52,663 nucleotides of DNA from positions 1 through 52,663 of the IMG/VR virus record IMGVR_UViG_3300033144_002182, one strand, 5' to 3'. Below are positions 5,866 through 47,352 of the stretch, piece by piece. The position numbers were made by a program, and so were the translations under genes. Each line of letters starts with the position of its first letter. Position 1 is the first letter of the stretch. The notes under the pieces are model-generated. The model ran no database searches. It worked only from the letters and a program-made list of their open reading frames with translations, and was not told the origin of the DNA. Source of the stretch: a virus.

Positions 5866-6071
5866 ACCGCCACCTCCTCAAGTTTGCCGACTGACGTGTA
5901 TGTATAATTAACTGGATCGTCCGAAACTTCAGCCGCGACGCGGTCGCAACCCGTCCAGCGCATCCAAAGATTATAGCCGTATCGGTCGGCCTCATCTTCG
6001 GTCGCAAATCGAATTGCGTTGTAAGACGGTTTCACTTGGTTAGGAACGTATACCGCTACTTTATAGCTCAT
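5862..6071 (-). CDS. Small conserved phage protein (hypothetical)
   Basis: 69 residues. The central pattern AIRFATEDEADRYGYNLWMR followed by WTGCDRVAAEVSDDPVNY resembles a small protein common in phage early regions, with the 'RFATxxEAxxYG' and 'SDDPVN' blocks. Its function is not known to me. SD-like GAGGTGGAG lies before the ATG, which overlaps the ArdC-type gene's stop. Confidence 0.75.
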   Translation of the reverse strand: MSYKVAVYVPNQVKPSYNAIRFATEDEADRYGYNLWMRWTGCDRVAAEVSDDPVNYTYTSVGKLEEVAV

Positions 6072-6931
6072 GCCTCCACCTCTTCTTTTTCGGTCATTAA
6101 GAAATCAACCGCCGCCCGCGCTTGGCTTGCGGCCTTGAAGATATACTTCTTGTCGTTTTTGAGTGCGCCCAACCAGCCCTTGACGTATGCGCCGTGATTC
6201 TCGTCCATCGCATCCCCGACGATACCCAGTCTGGCGAGCATCATCGCCGCGCCGATCTCAGCTACCAATTCCTCAAAAGCGTATTTCGCTGTGTCCTTCG
6301 TCGTGATCGTTCGGCCCAGTCTCGGGGCTGTCCAGTGGATCAATTCGTGGCAGAGCGTCCCGGCGTACTCCAAATCGGAATCGAAGCTGGTCGTGGACGG
6401 CAAACTCACTACATCCGTATCGGGCCTGTAACAAGCGCGTCCGGGGTTGAGGGTAAGTGTAAGGTCGTGCCGGGAGCGGAGCGTATCGACTATGCTGGCG
6501 AGTTGTGGCGGCTCCTGAACACCGTTCTGGATGTCGATGTCCGTTTGCTCGATATTGAATACCCGGTAGTAGCGCAAAACCAGATACGTGTCGTCCGAAT
6601 TCTCGACTCCGTTCTTGCGCTCTTTCTCTTTCCAAGCCTCGCTTTTCGTGCTTTGCTTCCAAAACAGGATCATCGTTGACTTGCTGCCTTTCTTAACCGT
6701 GGCTTTCAGCTTCCGGGCCTGATTAAAAGTGAGCCAGTAATTCGATCCGAACTCGTGCTTCTCTCCTGAGAGCCAGCACTGTAAAACATTGATGCCGCTG
6801 TACGGCTTCTTGGTCGTGTAATTGGTCGGTGCCGCAGCCCAACCCTTCTTCCACGGAACGTCTTTGCCCGATTCCAAATGTTCTATCATCTGGTCGGTGA
6901 CGTGCTGATATATGTCGAAGTCTCGTGCCAT
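6068..6931 (-). CDS. ArdC-type antirestriction protein (ssDNA-binding domain plus zincin)
   Basis: 287 residues. Residues about 5-130 match the ArdC N-terminal ssDNA-binding domain (YQHVTDQMIEHLESG, PWKKGW, SGINVLQCWL, YWLTFNQARKL, KGSKSTMILFWK, YYRVFNIEQT). The C-terminal half is a zincin metallopeptidase-like domain with HELIH (195-199) and a downstream EELVAEIGAAM (221-231) giving the third ligand. Related ArdC proteins protect incoming DNA from restriction. The role of the peptidase half is not settled. Start ATG 6931 follows AAAACGACA without a clear SD; four CAGATA repeats lie just upstream. Confidence 0.92.
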   Translation of the reverse strand: MARDFDIYQHVTDQMIEHLESGKDVPWKKGWAAAPTNYTTKKPYSGINVLQCWLSGEKHEFGSNYWLTFNQARKLKATVKKGSKSTMILFWKQSTKSEAWKEKERKNGVENSDDTYLVLRYYRVFNIEQTDIDIQNGVQEPPQLASIVDTLRSRHDLTLTLNPGRACYRPDTDVVSLPSTTSFDSDLEYAGTLCHELIHWTAPRLGRTITTKDTAKYAFEELVAEIGAAMMLARLGIVGDAMDENHGAYVKGWLGALKNDKKYIFKAASQARAAVDFLMTEKEEVEA

Positions 6932-10112: not shown

Positions 10113-10544
10113 CTATAAGCCCAAGTTTAGCTGCGTGTGCTTGGCTGCATACTTAGCGTAACGCGGAGGCAAATGGACAACTTCCATGCTTGGATCATCC
10201 ATTTTGAAACGGATCATATCGGCGACATCCTTGCGGTGGCATTCTGACCACTTCCAACAAGCGCAAAGGAGAATGATCGGGCCGTCTTTCAGGAGCGGTC
10301 GAACGATCCGCATTCCCGCTTCCACGTCTTTGAGTTTTGTCGGCCCACCACGGTAGTTCTCGTTTCCGAAATCTCCAACGTGGCGATACCTGTGAGAAAG
10401 GACGTTTTGAAGAGACTCTTTCGTAAACCGTTCGTCCTTAGACCACGGTTTCAGGCGCACGTCCACTACGATTGCGCCGAGCTTATGGGCGTAATGGGAA
10501 ATGTCCGAAGGGGTGCTGGAAGCGTAGCCGAGGGTGTAAATCAT
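10113..10544 (-). CDS. DUF488-family protein
   Basis: 143 residues with the family's signature blocks: YTLGYASSTPSD (3-14), VVDVRLKPWS (26-35), a 'RYRHVGDFGNENYRGG' loop (52-67) and ILLCACWKWSECHRK (91-105), the conserved Cys-x(n)-CHR element. DUF488 proteins are widespread and their biochemistry is unclear. Start ATG 10544 carries CAGACGACAATG, with a TTAGATT-like -10 at about 10567-10572. It is transcribed away from the methyltransferase/Mom-like gene, so the two start regions face each other across 50 bp. Confidence 0.88.
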   Translation of the reverse strand: MIYTLGYASSTPSDISHYAHKLGAIVVDVRLKPWSKDERFTKESLQNVLSHRYRHVGDFGNENYRGGPTKLKDVEAGMRIVRPLLKDGPIILLCACWKWSECHRKDVADMIRFKMDDPSMEVVHLPPRYAKYAAKHTQLNLGL

Positions 10545-10594: not shown

Positions 10595-11935
10595 ATGTTT
10601 TTAGGAACGATACACGAAAATGTGCGCCTGTTTGTGGCGTCACTGGCCGCAGAAAACCGAGGCAAGAAGATCATTGCCGGATGCTCTGACAACCTGACCG
10701 TCGAGCGGCTATTCTCACGCTTTGGCGTACCCGCCGAGATTCATTCCAATGACGTAACGCTCCACACGTATCTGCTGACCAGTGCCGTCCGTCAGACTCC
10801 GGTTAAGCTGGAACTCATGGATTCCGACTTCGCATTCGTGGCCCCCTTTCTGGGTGCCTCCGACCCGTGGATTGCTTGCTCCGCCGTAATGATCGTTTTT
10901 CGGATGCTCCAATACGAGAATCAGGGCAACGCGCACAACCGCCGAATGTGGCGGCACCACATAGCCAACTTCGAAGGACTCGTCTATCAGTCGGCAGCGA
11001 AAATGTCCTACGGGCTACCCCCAGAGATAACGTCGTACCACAACGGCGACGTATTCGACCACTTCAAGCGATTCGCCGACGACAAGGACGCCATCTTCAC
11101 CGCCTCCTTCCCGTTCTTCACTGGCGGCTACGAGAAAATGTTCAAGCGCATGGACGAAATCTTCTCATGGCCGAAGCCAGAATACCCGATGCTGGACGAC
11201 AAGCGTCGAGAGGAAATCATCAAATGGATGCGCGAGCGGAAACACTTCTTCCTTCTGTACGAGCCCCTGTCCAGAATCAAGCCTTCACTCGTAGCCAACA
11301 AACACCGGGACGTGTGGGTCTACTGCTACACGAACCTGACGAAAGACAAAGCCGTATTCCGGCGCAAACGAAGCGAAGAGGATCCGAAGTACCCGATCCT
11401 GCCAGCGGATTACGAATTCACCCGGCAGACACAAATCTCCCTCACCAAAGTACCGTCGGCGAACTCAGCCTTTTACAAAGGACAGTACCTCGCTAAGAAC
11501 ATCGACTACTCAAACGCAATGTGGGCCTTCGCGGTTATGGCCGACGATTACGTAATTGGATTCCTCGAATACTCGCTCACGTCGAGAGCCTTCGGAGCGC
11601 GAGACTCCATTTACATGATGGGAGATTTTGTCGTAGGCCAGAACAAAACGGCCAAGCTATCGAAACTGGTTGTCATGTTGTCGTGCTGCGCCGACATCCG
11701 AAAGGAGATCCGGCGGCTGACCGTGCAGGACATAAAAAAGGTTCTCACAACGGCCTTCACCGACCGAGCCGTTTCGATGAAATATCGAGGCGTATACAGA
11801 CTCGTTAAGCGAGGCGAAAACAACGGAAAGAAGTTCCTCAACTACGAAGCCCTCTTGGGCGGACGAAGGTCTAAACAGACGTACCAACAATGGTTCAGAA
11901 AAACTCAACGCCAGAAGCCCTCGTCGAACAGCTAA
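10595..11935 (+). CDS. Methyltransferase-like/Mom-like acetyltransferase fusion; candidate DNA-modifying enzyme
   Basis: 446 residues. The N-terminal half (about 1-220) resembles phage Dam-like adenine methyltransferases: KKIIAGCSDNLTVERLF (24-40, a motif-I-like region), EIHSNDVTLHTYLL (48-61), and in place of the catalytic [DNS]PPY motif the sequence ASFPFFTGGYEKMFK (170-184). The motif is altered, so methylation activity is doubtful. The C-terminal part (about 235-425) has the strand-helix order of a GNAT/Mom-type fold: SIYMMGDFVV (338-347), LSKLVVMLSCC (355-365) and TTAFTDRAVSMKYRGVYRLV (385-404), the last resembling Mom-like proteins. A joint role in hypermodifying adenine is inferred. 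It opens the rightward arm next to a ParB-like gene. Confidence 0.6.
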   Translation: MFLGTIHENVRLFVASLAAENRGKKIIAGCSDNLTVERLFSRFGVPAEIHSNDVTLHTYLLTSAVRQTPVKLELMDSDFAFVAPFLGASDPWIACSAVMIVFRMLQYENQGNAHNRRMWRHHIANFEGLVYQSAAKMSYGLPPEITSYHNGDVFDHFKRFADDKDAIFTASFPFFTGGYEKMFKRMDEIFSWPKPEYPMLDDKRREEIIKWMRERKHFFLLYEPLSRIKPSLVANKHRDVWVYCYTNLTKDKAVFRRKRSEEDPKYPILPADYEFTRQTQISLTKVPSANSAFYKGQYLAKNIDYSNAMWAFAVMADDYVIGFLEYSLTSRAFGARDSIYMMGDFVVGQNKTAKLSKLVVMLSCCADIRKEIRRLTVQDIKKVLTTAFTDRAVSMKYRGVYRLVKRGENNGKKFLNYEALLGGRRSKQTYQQWFRKTQRQKPSSNS

Positions 11936-12711
11936 ACGACGCGCTGATTGCCGACGAACTCACGCCTTACCGCATAGGTATAGCCGACCCGAAGCTGCTT
12001 GCTCCGCAGGACGTAAACGCTCACTTCATGCCGAAGAACGTCTACGACCAACTGGTAGCGAACGTCCAACGAGACGGGAATCTCTCGTCGATGCCTTTCT
12101 GCTGGAAGAAACCAACGGGCGAAATGTCGATCCTCTCTGGACACCACCGAGTCGAGGCGGCAATTCAGGCAGGAGCGCAAAAGGTTCTCTTTCTCTACAC
12201 AGACGCCAAGCTCAACGAACAACAACGCATCGCCATACAGCTATCCCACAACTCACTCGTCGGGCTCGACGACACGGCGATATTGAAGGAACAGTGGGCG
12301 AAGCTCCGAGACGTATCACTGAAACTATACTCAGGACTGGACGACCGGGCACTCAAAACATTCAACCCCGTTCTCTATTCCTCGTACAACGAAGCCTCTC
12401 TACGGGTGCAGACCATAGAACTCCAATTCCTGTCAACAGAACTCGAGGCCATAAAAACCACGTTCGAGAAATTAAACAAGTCAGCACGGCACCACTTCGC
12501 GGCGAGAATGGAGGACTTTGAACCATTCCTCGAAGCATTCATAAGACTTAAAGAATCATCAACGATCTATAACTCATCAACAGCCTTCCTCATGCTTATC
12601 CGTGCTGCTGAACTGATTGCAGACTTCATGGACGATTACAAGCGTGAGCCAACAGGAGAGGAACTGGAAGTGATACACGACAAGCTGAACGACGAGGGAT
12701 TGATTGACTGA
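11890..12711 (+). CDS. ParB-like domain protein
   Basis: 273 residues, starting inside the end of the previous gene (46-nt overlap, no clear SD, so probably coupled). Residues about 35-125 form a ParB/sulfiredoxin-like domain: KLLAPQDVNAHFMPKNVYDQ, then NLSSMPFCWKK and the nucleotide-binding ILSGHHRVEAAIQAG (81-95). The rest is helical and acidic. ParB-like proteins are common beside phage DNA-modification and packaging genes. CTPase, nuclease or DNA-targeting roles are all possible. Sitting between the Mom-like fusion and terminase, it may guide modification or mark DNA before packaging (inference). Confidence 0.8.
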   Translation: MVQKNSTPEALVEQLNDALIADELTPYRIGIADPKLLAPQDVNAHFMPKNVYDQLVANVQRDGNLSSMPFCWKKPTGEMSILSGHHRVEAAIQAGAQKVLFLYTDAKLNEQQRIAIQLSHNSLVGLDDTAILKEQWAKLRDVSLKLYSGLDDRALKTFNPVLYSSYNEASLRVQTIELQFLSTELEAIKTTFEKLNKSARHHFAARMEDFEPFLEAFIRLKESSTIYNSSTAFLMLIRAAELIADFMDDYKREPTGEELEVIHDKLNDEGLID

Positions 12712-12729: not shown

Positions 12730-13155
12730 ATGGGAAGGAAACCAAGCGAGTCCGAAAAGAAGAAAATCGCTGCCAGACGTGCGAAGGTGGCTGCGAATAT
12801 CGTTGCTGGCGTGGATTACCGAACGATGTCTGCGGCTCTTGTGCAAGAGGGCTATTCGGCATCACTCGGCACGATTGCTTCTGACGCGAAATGGTTACTC
12901 GCAGATTGGCAAAAACGATCTGTTGAGGAAATGGACAACTTCGTCCGCGTGGAGCTACGAAGGCTCGACATTGCACTGAATTCAATCTGGGACAAGGTGA
13001 CCGACGGAAATGACCGATCTATTGAAACCATGCTCAAACTCATGGAGAGACGGGCTAAGTACCTGGGATTAGATGCAGCCACTACCATCGAACACGGACT
13101 CCCCGACGACTTCAAAATTAGCGGAATCAAGTTCTCTCCACGTCCCGCTGAATGA
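12730..13155 (+). CDS. terS: Terminase small subunit (probable)
   Basis: 141 residues. The N-terminal segment (about 5-55) is basic and HTH-like: MGRKPSESEKKKIAARRAKV, then VDYRTMSAALVQEGYSASLG. A helical middle for oligomerisation (about 65-115, VEEMDNFVRVELRRLDIALN) follows. Short length and position directly before the large subunit fit a small terminase that recognises DNA for packaging. Family similarity is weak by eye; context carries the call. Confidence 0.75.
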   Translation: MGRKPSESEKKKIAARRAKVAANIVAGVDYRTMSAALVQEGYSASLGTIASDAKWLLADWQKRSVEEMDNFVRVELRRLDIALNSIWDKVTDGNDRSIETMLKLMERRAKYLGLDAATTIEHGLPDDFKISGIKFSPRPAE

Positions 13156-14446
13156 CGTATTCTTCAAGGACGCAGACAACGAACTAGACTTTGCTTACCA
13201 TCCGGGCCAACTAGCGGCACACGGTTCTGATGCCAGAACGATACTTGTGCTTGCCGGTACGCAGTCGGGCAAAACCGTCTATGGCCCGTGGTGGCTCTTG
13301 CGTGAGATTATGCACCGTGGCCCCGGAGACTATCTGTTTGCCACGCCGACCTATCCGCTTCTCGAAGTCAAGGCCCTTCCGTCGTTTCGATTCCTCTTCC
13401 AAACGATCCTGAAACTGGGCACCTACAAAACCGCACCCGTCCGGGCGTTCACGTTCAACAAGAACGGAGAGGACTTGCTACGCAAAAACGGCTGGAAAAT
13501 AACCGAACCGACGCGGATCGTGTTCGGCCATGCGTCGAGTCCAGAATCTCTCGAATCAGCAACGTACAAAGCTGCCGTACTGGATGAGGCTGGACAGAAG
13601 CAATTCAAAGTCGACTCGAAGCAAGCCATCGACCGGCGACTCTCTATCCACCGGGGCCGGATGCTGATTACCACAACACCGTACCACATCGGCTGGCTCA
13701 AGCTCGACATATACGACAAGGCAGCAAACCGGAAGGGCTCAGAGAAGGACATCGAAGTCATTCAGTTTGAATCAATAATGAACCCGACGTTTCCCGTAGA
13801 CGAATACGAACGGGCTCAAAGACTCCTACCCCCGTGGAAATTCAATCTCTTCTATCGGGCCATGTGGGAGCGGCCTATCGGTCAAATCTATTCGTCATTC
13901 GACGAAGAACGCGACGTGGTTGACCCCTTCCCGATACCCGAAAACTGGTTGCGGTTCCTCGGCATGGACTTTGGCGGCGTGAATACCGCTGGGGTCTATT
14001 TCGCCGTCGATCCTGACTACAAACAAATGGTCGTCTACCGCGAATACCATGCTGGCGACAAGTCAGCGGCGGAACACACAAAGGATCTCTTGAAAGGTGA
14101 AGCGATCATTCCGACGTGCTTTGGCGGGGCGGCTTCGGAAAAACAGTGGCGTGTCGAGTTTACGAACTCAGGACTGCCGATCTCACGTCCTCCAATAGGT
14201 GATGTAGAGGTAGGAATCAATCGCGTCTTTGCGATGCACGTGGAGGGCCGGATCAAGGTGTTCCGTAATTGTTTGAAATATATCGACGAAAAGCTGCGAT
14301 ACTCCCGCAAACTCAACGATATGGACGAGCCTACCGAGGACATCGAGGACAAGGCCACGTTTCACTTGATGGATGCCGAACGCTATATCATCGCTCACCT
14401 TTGGACTGGTGCCGGAGATTTGGGCGGCGAGGTTATTGGATTCTAG
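13073..14446 (+). CDS. terL: Terminase large subunit
   Basis: 457 residues from the only upstream ATG. This gives an unusual 83-nt overlap with the small subunit; the true start could be a non-ATG codon downstream, since homology begins near residue 40. ATPase domain: Walker A LAGTQSGKT (60-68), Walker B AAVLDEAG (about 167-174), coupling motif LITTTPY (198-204). C-terminal RNase-H-like nuclease: FLGMDFGGVNTAG with the first catalytic Asp, and near the end FHLMDAERYIIAHLW with the last. It pumps and cuts DNA at the portal. Confidence 0.93.
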   Translation: MQPLPSNTDSPTTSKLAESSSLHVPLNDVFFKDADNELDFAYHPGQLAAHGSDARTILVLAGTQSGKTVYGPWWLLREIMHRGPGDYLFATPTYPLLEVKALPSFRFLFQTILKLGTYKTAPVRAFTFNKNGEDLLRKNGWKITEPTRIVFGHASSPESLESATYKAAVLDEAGQKQFKVDSKQAIDRRLSIHRGRMLITTTPYHIGWLKLDIYDKAANRKGSEKDIEVIQFESIMNPTFPVDEYERAQRLLPPWKFNLFYRAMWERPIGQIYSSFDEERDVVDPFPIPENWLRFLGMDFGGVNTAGVYFAVDPDYKQMVVYREYHAGDKSAAEHTKDLLKGEAIIPTCFGGAASEKQWRVEFTNSGLPISRPPIGDVEVGINRVFAMHVEGRIKVFRNCLKYIDEKLRYSRKLNDMDEPTEDIEDKATFHLMDAERYIIAHLWTGAGDLGGEVIGF

Positions 14447-14476: not shown

Positions 14477-14546
14477 GCGCGGGTAACCTAATGTAGGGTG
14501 CCTTGCTCCCGGTGAGGATGTGGAGGTTCAAATCCTTCCCCGCGCT
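14477..14546 (+). tRNA. Candidate tRNA-Gly (anticodon CCC), atypical D arm
   Basis: The seven-base acceptor GCGCGGG pairs perfectly with CCCGCGC. The T arm is GGAGG-TTCAAAT-CCTTC (one G-T pair) with the canonical TTCAAAT loop. The anticodon arm CCTTG-CTCCCGG-GTGAGG region gives a 5-bp stem (two wobble pairs) and a 7-base loop with T33 and anticodon CCC. The D arm is short (three good pairs, 5-base loop, no GG), and CCA is not encoded. It fills most of the 119-bp gap between terminase and portal. Confidence 0.55.
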
Positions 14547-14565
14547 CAACTATTCAATCGGAGCC

Positions 14566-45294: not shown

Positions 45295-45947
45295 CCTTTG
45301 ACCCGATTTATTCTTCGATGGCTACCATACCCGGAAGGGAAAAGGAATGCGCGAACACAACGGAATCTATCGTTTCCCAGTGTGACCGCGTTGTCGTTAT
45401 GCGAGGGCCGCTCGGCCCTGATGGGCGAACCGACGATGCACGTAAATTCTTTGGTGTAAATGACGCTCCCTGTTATCGTTTCATCTGCGACGATGATCTT
45501 ATTTTCCCTCCGGGTTGCCTCGAATGGATGCGTGAGTGGGTCGAAGAGTATGACCGCAAATGCGTAATCGTTTTGGGCGGCGGCATAATGAACGAAACGC
45601 CTGTCGGGTCCTATTACAGAGGCGGTAGAAGAGTTCGTTATGGGGCTCTGAATCAAGTAGATGAGGCGGTCTGGGTGAACGTGCCCCTGACGTGTGGGCT
45701 CATGTACCATACTGACACTATCCAGCCGCGTCTCGAAGATTTCCCGGCGCACAATATGGGCGACATCCTTTTCGGCATCCTCTGTCAAGCCGAAGAGGTG
45801 CCCATTATCTGTCTGCCACACAAGGCGGACTATATCACATATCAGGATTCCGTCGGAACGGACACGATCTGGGATCGAGAACACAGCGACGATCCAATCC
45901 AGACCCAGTACACAAACTCTATCCAGTGGAATCTTCTTACCCTGTAA
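45291..45947 (+). CDS. Glycosyltransferase-like protein (GT-A type)
   Basis: 218 residues. It opens with a family-2-like strand (IYSSMATIPGREKECANTTE) and then has FICDDDLIFPPGCLEWM (64-80), where the DDD fits the metal-binding DxD motif. Later comes an acceptor-type region with HNMGDILFGILCQAEEVPII. Shorter than many GT2 enzymes. Its position at the head of a four-gene block (three transferase-like, one FkbM methyltransferase) suggests glycan assembly. Sugar and acceptor are unknown. Confidence 0.75.
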   Translation: MTFDPIYSSMATIPGREKECANTTESIVSQCDRVVVMRGPLGPDGRTDDARKFFGVNDAPCYRFICDDDLIFPPGCLEWMREWVEEYDRKCVIVLGGGIMNETPVGSYYRGGRRVRYGALNQVDEAVWVNVPLTCGLMYHTDTIQPRLEDFPAHNMGDILFGILCQAEEVPIICLPHKADYITYQDSVGTDTIWDREHSDDPIQTQYTNSIQWNLLTL

Positions 45948-46648
45948 CCAATATCAGATACGGCCCTACTGCTCAAGAAGTAGTGGTTGAGATTCGTGAC
46001 CCCGAAGAACACATCCAAAAACACTGGCTGGCTGGCTGTTTTTACGAATCCCGTGGCGGCGGGTTGCTCCCGTATATCCGGCACCTCAACGCCCTCGCTG
46101 GGCCATTCCGGGTTTGTTACGATATTGGTGCCTCTATCGGTAACCATACCCTTTTCATGTCCCAGATACTCGGCGCGAATTACGTGCTGGCTATTGAACC
46201 ATACTTGCCCTCCTACGACCACCTCGTTTCCAACCTCGCTCACAACCACGTGTCGAAAGACCGGGTCTGGACGCTGAACATGGCCCTATCAGACGAGCAG
46301 GTCTGGGGCGATGCCGAACTATACGGTCAGGAGAGCGGAAACAACGTCGGCATGGTTCATTTCACGAAATCCCAATTTGGCAGTCCTGTTTATTGTGATA
46401 CGCTCGACACGATGGTTTCTAAGTATGGCTGTCCGCTCCCCGACTACGTGAAGATCGACGTGGAGCATATGGAGGAACAGGTCGTCGCCGGGATGCTGAA
46501 TACGATCAGGGCTTGCTCTCCAATTCTATCCATCGAGCTTGAACGAGGAACCGAGGTAATGGATAGTATATTATCCCCGCTCGGGTATCGCCGCGATCCC
46601 GTTGTGCTGAATCACACGCCAACGTATGTTTACAAGCCGGACAAATGA
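45926..46648 (+). CDS. FkbM-type SAM-dependent methyltransferase
   Basis: 240 residues from GTG 45926 (22-nt overlap). SAM-binding motif I is VCYDIGASIGNHTLF (63-77), followed by YVLAIEPYLPSYDHL (motif II, acidic after the strand). The family-typical PDYVKIDVEHMEEQVVAGM lies further on, then SPILSIELERGTE. FkbM-family enzymes usually O-methylate sugars or hydroxyl groups in natural-product and glycan pathways. Together with the flanking transferases it may cap or decorate a sugar. Cytoplasmic, no signal peptide. Confidence 0.85.
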   Translation: MESSYPVTNIRYGPTAQEVVVEIRDPEEHIQKHWLAGCFYESRGGGLLPYIRHLNALAGPFRVCYDIGASIGNHTLFMSQILGANYVLAIEPYLPSYDHLVSNLAHNHVSKDRVWTLNMALSDEQVWGDAELYGQESGNNVGMVHFTKSQFGSPVYCDTLDTMVSKYGCPLPDYVKIDVEHMEEQVVAGMLNTIRACSPILSIELERGTEVMDSILSPLGYRRDPVVLNHTPTYVYKPDK

Positions 46649-47352
46649 ACCGTGTCATTACTATCGTTTCATACAACAGGCCGTTACTATTAGAGCGGCT
46701 TCTGGTATCGCTCAAGCCTCATGTCTCTGACTCTGATTACATAGTCGTTTTTGACGATTGCTCCAAAACAAAAACGGCGGACGTTCTCCGCCGCTATTCT
46801 CCGGCTGACTGGACATTGCACCGCTTCGTTCGGCACCAAGGGCGGCTGAATCACTGGCGGCTCTGGAATACGATCGTCCATGTTCTCGACCGCATGAACT
46901 GGGATCACTGGCTTGCTGTCCCTGACGACGTGTGGTTCCCGGCTCAGTACAGGCACCTCCACCGCCTCGCGCACACATGGGCTCGTTTAATCAAGCATGA
47001 CCCCTTCGCCGTTACACTCAATCTCTGCGTCGATTCTCGTGGGCACGATAAATGCTGGACCGGCCAAGATCCTGTCGTGGTTAGGATCGGGAATACTGTT
47101 CTGCACCGCACTCAATGGGTCGATATGTGCTTCTACACAGACCGCCGTTTTCTCGAAGCCGTGGATTGGTTTATCCGTCCTACTCTGGAATATATGTTCG
47201 AAGAAACCCGCGGCTCCGGCGTTGGCCGCAGCGTATCGACGCTGCTTTATTACAAGGATTTGAATATGTACCAAGTCGATAAAACTGCCGTGTTCCACGG
47301 TTCTCACACATCCGTCATGCACCCAGAATACCGAAAAGACAACCCTCTCTAA
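46645..47352 (+). CDS. Glycosyltransferase family 2-like protein
   Basis: 235 residues. A GT2 opening, VITIVSYNRPLLLERLLVSL (4-23), is followed by VVFDDCSKTKTADVL (34-48) and AVPDDVWFPAQYRHL (91-105), the DxD-like metal site. A later region contains CFYTDRRFLEAVDWF and EYMFEETRGSGVGRSVSTLL. ATGA overlap with the methyltransferase gene indicates coupled expression. Acceptor unknown. Confidence 0.82.
   Translation: MNRVITIVSYNRPLLLERLLVSLKPHVSDSDYIVVFDDCSKTKTADVLRRYSPADWTLHRFVRHQGRLNHWRLWNTIVHVLDRMNWDHWLAVPDDVWFPAQYRHLHRLAHTWARLIKHDPFAVTLNLCVDSRGHDKCWTGQDPVVVRIGNTVLHRTQWVDMCFYTDRRFLEAVDWFIRPTLEYMFEETRGSGVGRSVSTLLYYKDLNMYQVDKTAVFHGSHTSVMHPEYRKDNPL

Follow-up and report, generated by a model that had tools for sequence, protein, structure and literature searches.

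Glycine tRNA-like elements beside phage Dam-GNAT fusion genes and Mom genes suggest a glycyl-tRNA-dependent modification of DNA

A gene that joins a Dam-like fold to a Mom-like GNAT fold is present in a 52.7-kb IMG/VR virus record, the whole of which is referred to here as the window. In related viruses this gene is paired with a ParB-fold gene, and many of the loci also hold a tRNA-Gly or tRNA-Gly-like element. The best explanation of this arrangement is probably a glycyl-tRNA-dependent hypermodification of adenine, in which the fusion protein would move glycine from a charged tRNA onto phage DNA. A broader proposal, held somewhat less firmly, is that phages modify bases with an amino acid taken from charged tRNA and encode tRNA-Gly-like donors, some reduced nearly to an acceptor and T arm and some lying inside the open reading frame of the enzyme. 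This would apply to Mom-type enzymes generally, with phage Mu using the Gly-tRNA of its host. The structure of the Mom modification has reportedly been known since 1983, and to our knowledge its donor is not settled. The surroundings of the fusion gene give a testable answer to this question of Mom chemistry, including in cultured phages (Megabear, Soos, Wyborn, and Antuna). If glycyl-tRNA is the donor, DNA hypermodification would join the few reactions that spend charged tRNA outside translation, and degenerate tRNAs beside GNAT genes would offer a route to further amino-acid-based DNA modifications.

Dam-like and Mom-like folds in one protein

The fusion gene lies at 10595-11935 on the plus strand and encodes a protein of 446 amino acids within PHROG 7858 (function unknown). 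The sequence-only reading had proposed that a Dam-like half and a Mom-like half share this reading frame, which is borne out by Pfam profiles, an AlphaFold model, and structural matches to both folds. Residues 2-262 (10598-11380, +) match PF22555, 'Phage DNA Adenine Methylase-like domain 1' (E 3.6e-48), and residues 279-437 (11429-11905, +) match PF22559, 'Phage GNAT-like domain' (E 9.3e-42), both with scores far above the Pfam cut-offs. The AlphaFold model is confident (pLDDT 93.8, pTM 0.84). The best structural match of its N-terminal half is Escherichia coli Dam (2g1p; Z 13.9 over 192 residues), and the top GNAT match is Mom of phage Mu (8bv8_A; Z 11.7, rmsd 3.0, 141 residues), by a small margin over the next GNAT (Z 11.0). 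Foldseek ranks Mu Mom (8bv8) second among the matches to the same model (E 1.9e-5). When the GNAT half is aligned with Mom by hhalign, the sequence-profile link is weak (probability 54%, over 52 columns only), and the Pfam Mom profile PF25680, which matches Mu Mom itself at E 2.4e-75, finds no match in the window protein. The fusion protein is therefore not filed in the Mom family, being like Mom in structure but outside PF25680 in sequence.

The two-domain architecture is by itself not new, because PF22555, PF22559, and PHROG 7858 already catalogue it. The window protein belongs fully to these families, whose entries name no function, donor, tRNA, or link to DUF488. A similar module is found in PHROG 2443, annotated as an amidoligase, in which positions 552-783, at the C-terminus, align with residues 189-426 of the fusion protein (E 1.5e-16). 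Here an amidoligase may be combined with this module, and may feed a different donor by another route.

A scan of viral contigs with the single protein found no relative; scans with family alignments did, with 223 relatives found for the fusion protein and 176 for its ParB partner. The loci of 80 fusion and 80 ParB relatives were taken, with some contigs in both samples, and clustering of the fusion family at 80% identity gave 99 clusters. Cultured carriers of the pair include phages of Gordonia, Mycobacterium, Microbacterium, and Faecalibacterium. A search of PDB sequences with alignment A4 returned mainly matches to the coiled-coil ATP synthase b, which were judged spurious.

Loss of the catalytic motif in the Dam half

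Replacement of the Dam motif by SFPFF had been described from the sequence, and it is seen at residues 171-175 (motif IV; 11105-11119, +). In register, [DNS]PP[YFW] becomes S-F-P-F, so that the window protein departs from Dam motif IV. The family consensus is F-P-P-[TF]-[YF], and the first position, which in Dam holds the catalytic D/N/S, is F or Y in 90 of the 99 clusters, S in three, and N in two. Motif I differs as well. The window reads GCSDN against GCSGN in the family, with D32 where 96 of 99 clusters have G, and the second glycine of the motif is mostly F in the fusion family. The loss of methyl transfer raised by the sequence-only reading is thus supported family-wide, and methyl transfer by the Dam half appears improbable because the catalytic D/N/S has changed and the window carries D32 in motif I. 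The DNA-binding, base-presenting role suggested in that reading fits, and may include base flipping.

Some features would suit a Dam half that is still an active methyltransferase with a new specificity, the GNAT half acting separately, for example on host proteins. D53 is kept in 99 of 99 clusters and D152 in 98, and by position these probably correspond to the acids that line the cofactor pocket in Dam. Motif IV is NPPT in FP_Brigit and ValentiniPuff, and FP_Brigit also encodes a SAM synthetase, four genes upstream of its fusion gene. The changes in motifs IV and I run against such activity across the family, and we consider it unlikely.

A conserved ParB-fold partner

The partner gene (11890-12711, +) encodes 273 amino acids of PHROG 7405, and its coordinates agree with the 46-nt overlap with the fusion gene noted before. 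Pfam gives no significant match for the protein. Profile searches match it to 7bnr and Spo0J, and Foldseek matches its model to ParB, Noc, and KorB (E down to 5.5e-5). It has the ParB CTPase fold and a GxHR-type nucleotide-binding box, SGHHR in the window, with G84 and R87 invariant. Both genes lie on one strand in 161 of 164 loci (window included), and in 158 of those 161 they are within 1.5 kb of each other and mostly overlap; in the three exceptions to the pairing the ParB gene is close to a contig end. Relatives are only 20-40% identical to the window protein, so simple hitch-hiking of the two genes is unlikely. The pairing of the fusion and ParB genes is conserved. Loci L108 and L109 have the reverse order, with the ParB gene ahead of the fusion gene.

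Proteins with the ParB-CTPase fold differ in the nucleotide that they bind, which may be CTP, ATP, or GTP; in one of them, a ParB fold fused to an acetyltransferase, it was GTP (PMC12704722). Because the fold binds nucleotides, the most natural role for the partner would be to load the enzyme on DNA as a nucleotide-driven clamp or switch. By analogy with SerK, a kinase-like role is possible.

A glycine tRNA-like element near the fusion gene

The only tRNA that ARAGORN identifies in the window is a tRNA-Gly (anticodon CCC) at 14477-14547 (+), in the intergenic gap after the large terminase gene and 2.5 kb downstream of the fusion gene on the same strand. It is also the only Rfam match in the window (RF00005, 14477-14546, 50.6 bits). 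Its acceptor stem has G1-C2-G3 opposite C70-G71-C72, followed by U73; CCA is not encoded, and the D-loop (aatgta) lacks the G18G19 of elongator tRNAs. In the wider family, 52 of 90 evaluable clusters have a tRNA-Gly or tRNA-Gly-like element, which usually lies upstream of the fusion gene at a distance of 0-500 nt. ARAGORN called 66 tRNAs in 167 loci, 52 of them Gly and mostly 0-300 nt upstream. A scan for a bare acceptor stem plus CCA was only modestly informative in this family (matches upstream in 24 of 90, with 24 at other places on the same strand and 34 on the opposite one), and a covariance model, R1, built from 35 elements, was therefore used. For 44 of 90 clusters it places an element upstream at a distance of no more than 500 nt; several others have one elsewhere, and 75 of the 94 hits of R1 are close to the fusion gene.

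Examples occur in cultured phages. In Mycobacterium phage Megabear, an annotated tRNA-Gly(tcc) touches the start of the fusion gene, and in Gordonia phage Soos an element (L001, 8821-8894; 46.7 bits) lies 74 nt before it, where the public record has no annotation. The Rfam tRNA model, run once at its gathering score, found the elements of the window and of L121 and missed those of nine other loci; with laxer filters it gave 42 bits for L200 and nothing for L001 and L032. Either these misses reflect degeneration of the elements, or they weaken the case for the weakest of them. A different tRNA is seen in FP_Brigit (L003, 8732-8808), where a tRNA-Lys(ctt)-like gene with a D-loop (agaaagta) that lacks GG is found 163 nt upstream of the fusion gene. 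This hints that the donor amino acid may have changed there and that other amino acids may serve.

The pattern of conservation within the elements is uneven. In an alignment of 35 sequences, compensatory changes on both sides are seen at 18 of 22 base pairs, and G1-C72, C2-G71, G3-C70, and U73 are unchanged throughout; likewise, GCG...CGCT occurs in 46 of 48 ARAGORN-called elements near the fusion gene. The identity elements of E. coli glycyl-tRNA synthetase (GlyRS) are G1-C72, C2-G71, G3-C70, and U73 together with C35 and C36, and all of them are present here as far as the sequence tells. Features used in decoding are kept less well. The D-loop GG is missing in 21 of the 48 elements, compared with none of nine control tRNAs from T4 and E. 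coli, nine elements have an ACC anticodon, and some have a 6-nt anticodon loop. In L063, L017, and L024 the Gly acceptor with CCA and the T arm are kept and the middle has collapsed; the first two are nearly unrecognizable as tRNA, yet retain GCG...CGCTCCA. CCA is encoded in most elements. These sequences suggest molecules suited to glycylation rather than to translation.

It is in this respect that an ordinary role in translation can be judged. Phages often carry tRNAs, and GGG makes up 17% of glycine codons in the main genes of the window, so that a tRNA-Gly could supplement codon usage or defend against tRNA-cutting hosts, with its link to the fusion gene due to chance or synteny. A translational tRNA sits poorly with the many elements in which the D-loop GG is missing, the anticodon is ACC, or the anticodon loop has 6 nt, with the dominance of Gly alone (52 of 66 tRNAs), and with the occurrence of two different gene arrangements, and this reading seems very improbable.

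The presence of the element is variable. On a tree of 90 sequences, it occurs in most lineages and requires at least 22 changes, 19 of which are forced by well-supported branches. There is no detectable element in 38 of the 90 clusters, and 34 of 35 whole records that lack one near the fusion gene have none anywhere in the record. A phage-encoded tRNA is therefore not obligatory.

The same element beside true Mom genes

Searches with Mu Mom (tblastn) revealed that the Mom genes of actinophages Antuna and Wyborn adjoin ParB-like genes. Antuna has an annotated tRNA-Gly after mom on the opposite strand, and Arthrobacter phage Wyborn has a tRNA-Gly-like gene after mom (L200, 2544-2615) that is not in the public annotation. 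Eighty uncultivated relatives of Wyborn Mom, sampled together with Wyborn and Antuna, form 46 clusters, and ParB is directly upstream of mom in 34 of these. The covariance model detects an element at the 3' end of mom in 33 of 45 clusters. The strict pattern GCGnnnn...nnnnCGC-U-CCA, with all seven pairs, is found at this position in 29 of 46 clusters, against 0.04 clusters expected by chance from mononucleotide shuffles. Without CCA the pattern reaches 41 of 46, but this looser form also turns up at 71 other places on the strand in 236 kb. Acceptor pairs 4-7, on which the search set no demand beyond a limit of one mismatch in all, take all Watson-Crick forms. Across 32 Mu-type Mom loci, the covariance model found no element.

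These actinophage systems share with the window a GNAT enzyme, a ParB-fold gene, and an adjoining tRNA-Gly element. They differ in having no Dam-fold half, in a short ParB that lies upstream, and in an element that is downstream, usually overlapped by the mom reading frame, and often far more degenerate. Because the gene family, the side, and the type of ParB differ, the tie between a Mom fold and tRNA-Gly was made at least twice or has been kept through deep divergence.

In 36 of 45 clusters (L209-L288) the mom reading frame continues in frame across the element, which on this basis is a predicted dual-coding tRNA-like RNA. Such an overlap, with elements that adjoin or sit inside a gene, is also what might be seen if the tRNA-like structure acted in cis, as a processing site for RNase P or RNase Z or as a regulatory structure in the mRNA. 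The acceptor and T arm are the parts that these two enzymes read, and they are the best kept in the most degenerate forms. Processing enzymes do not, however, require G1-C2-G3 or U73, and CCA is encoded in most elements. The position is also not constant, being upstream in the fusion family, downstream in the Mom family, and 2.5 kb away in the window. A role in cis is accordingly rated as quite improbable.

A proposed mechanism

In the mechanism that we favour, glycyl-tRNA-dependent hypermodification, the host glycyl-tRNA synthetase would attach glycine to the phage tRNA-Gly or to that of the host. The Dam-fold half would bind phage DNA and present a flipped-out adenine, as Dam does, without methyl transfer. 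The Mom-type GNAT half would use the aminoacyl-tRNA and move the glycyl group to N6 of this adenine, and an internal rearrangement would then give the isomer known from Mu, N6-purinyl glycinamide (N6-carbamoylmethyl-adenine). A Smiles-type reaction, in which the glycyl amine attacks C6, could produce this isomer. It would need no further atoms, because glycyl and carbamoylmethyl groups both add C2H3NO. The ParB-fold partner would probably place the enzyme on phage DNA by acting as a nucleotide-gated clamp or switch, a DUF488 protein may serve as an accessory, and the bulky modified base would block host restriction. A Gly-tRNA donor would account for the almost constant glycine identity of the linked RNA, for the decay of its decoding parts, and for phages that have no element of their own, which could still use the host tRNA.

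The Mu Mom product is given as alpha-N-(purin-6-yl)glycinamide (Swinton 1983, as cited in PMC3874153 and PMC4461284). This purinyl glycinamide adds exactly the atoms of one glycine residue to adenine. An acyl-CoA such as glycyl-CoA is stated to be the donor for Mom (PMC7824862), GNATs usually use acyl-CoA, and the structural matches of the fusion model include many GNAT-CoA structures. A Mom-type modification with a CoA-linked acyl donor would leave the tRNA-Gly as a mere passenger. A passenger would not be expected to be specific for glycine, to keep the GlyRS acceptor as decoding features go, or to recur beside true Mom genes in another position. In addition, the residues around 350-358 show no evident match to the CoA motif usual in GNATs (R/Q-x-x-G-x-G/A); L-[SA]-K-L is conserved there. 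We leave a CoA donor a modest minority chance.

The DUF488-family gene of the window (10113-10544, −; PF04343, E 1.7e-11) is divergent from the fusion gene and about 50 bp from it. Of 83 evaluable clusters, 60 have such a gene close to the fusion gene, in most cases immediately upstream, and its product has the motif C...CHR. A sequence search for a solved relative of DUF488 found none, and among the clusters no coupling between DUF488 and tRNA-Gly was seen (Fisher p 0.22). The tRNA-Gly and DUF488 components carry the proposed mechanism, and both were absent from the initial reading.

Relation to known systems

Mu Mom is likewise phage-encoded and has the GNAT fold of the C-terminal half, and its product, a glycinamide on adenine, is in line with a glycine donor. 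In contrast, it has no Dam-fold half, and Mu has neither a ParB partner nor a tRNA beside mom. The Dam methyltransferases of E. coli and T4 have the same fold as the N-terminal half across about 190 residues, and differ from the window protein in its changed motif IV, with which methyl transfer is improbable. A further parallel, likened by description only, comes from staphylococci, where a non-translational tRNA-Gly that has lost its decoding features is used by FemX, FemA, and FemB in cell-wall synthesis. In both cases a glycylated tRNA without decoding features would feed a GNAT-related transferase; the acceptor is a peptidoglycan precursor in staphylococci, whereas here it would be DNA adenine. 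FemX and LFTR are absent among the fold matches listed for the fusion model, which excludes nothing. A literature search that covered neither bioRxiv nor most subscription journals found no paper linking Mom or the PF22555/PF22559 family to a tRNA, and within the same limits no account of a dedicated glycine tRNA paired with DUF488 and ParB, or of such a mechanism.

Terminase genes and wider context of the window

Terminase had been taken to follow the ParB gene after 18 bp, with a possible link between modification and packaging. An open reading frame does begin there (12730-13155, +) in the position of a small terminase, but its identity as TerS is not confirmed; it matches PHROG 645 (named 'Rnase E') and shows no similarity to the TerS of FP_Brigit. 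The large terminase gene follows at 13073-14446 (+). The link to packaging is weak, because the order with terminase after the pair, seen in FP_Brigit and ValentiniPuff, is not found in Megabear or Soos.

Two other loci in the window encode recognizable domains. At 6068-6931 (−), an ArdC N-terminal domain (PF08401) is combined with a zincin metallopeptidase domain (PF18818), as in a family of anti-restriction proteins. In the late region, at 45926-47352 (+), an FkbM-type methyltransferase (PF05050) is found beside a borderline match to family 2 glycosyltransferases (PF00535).
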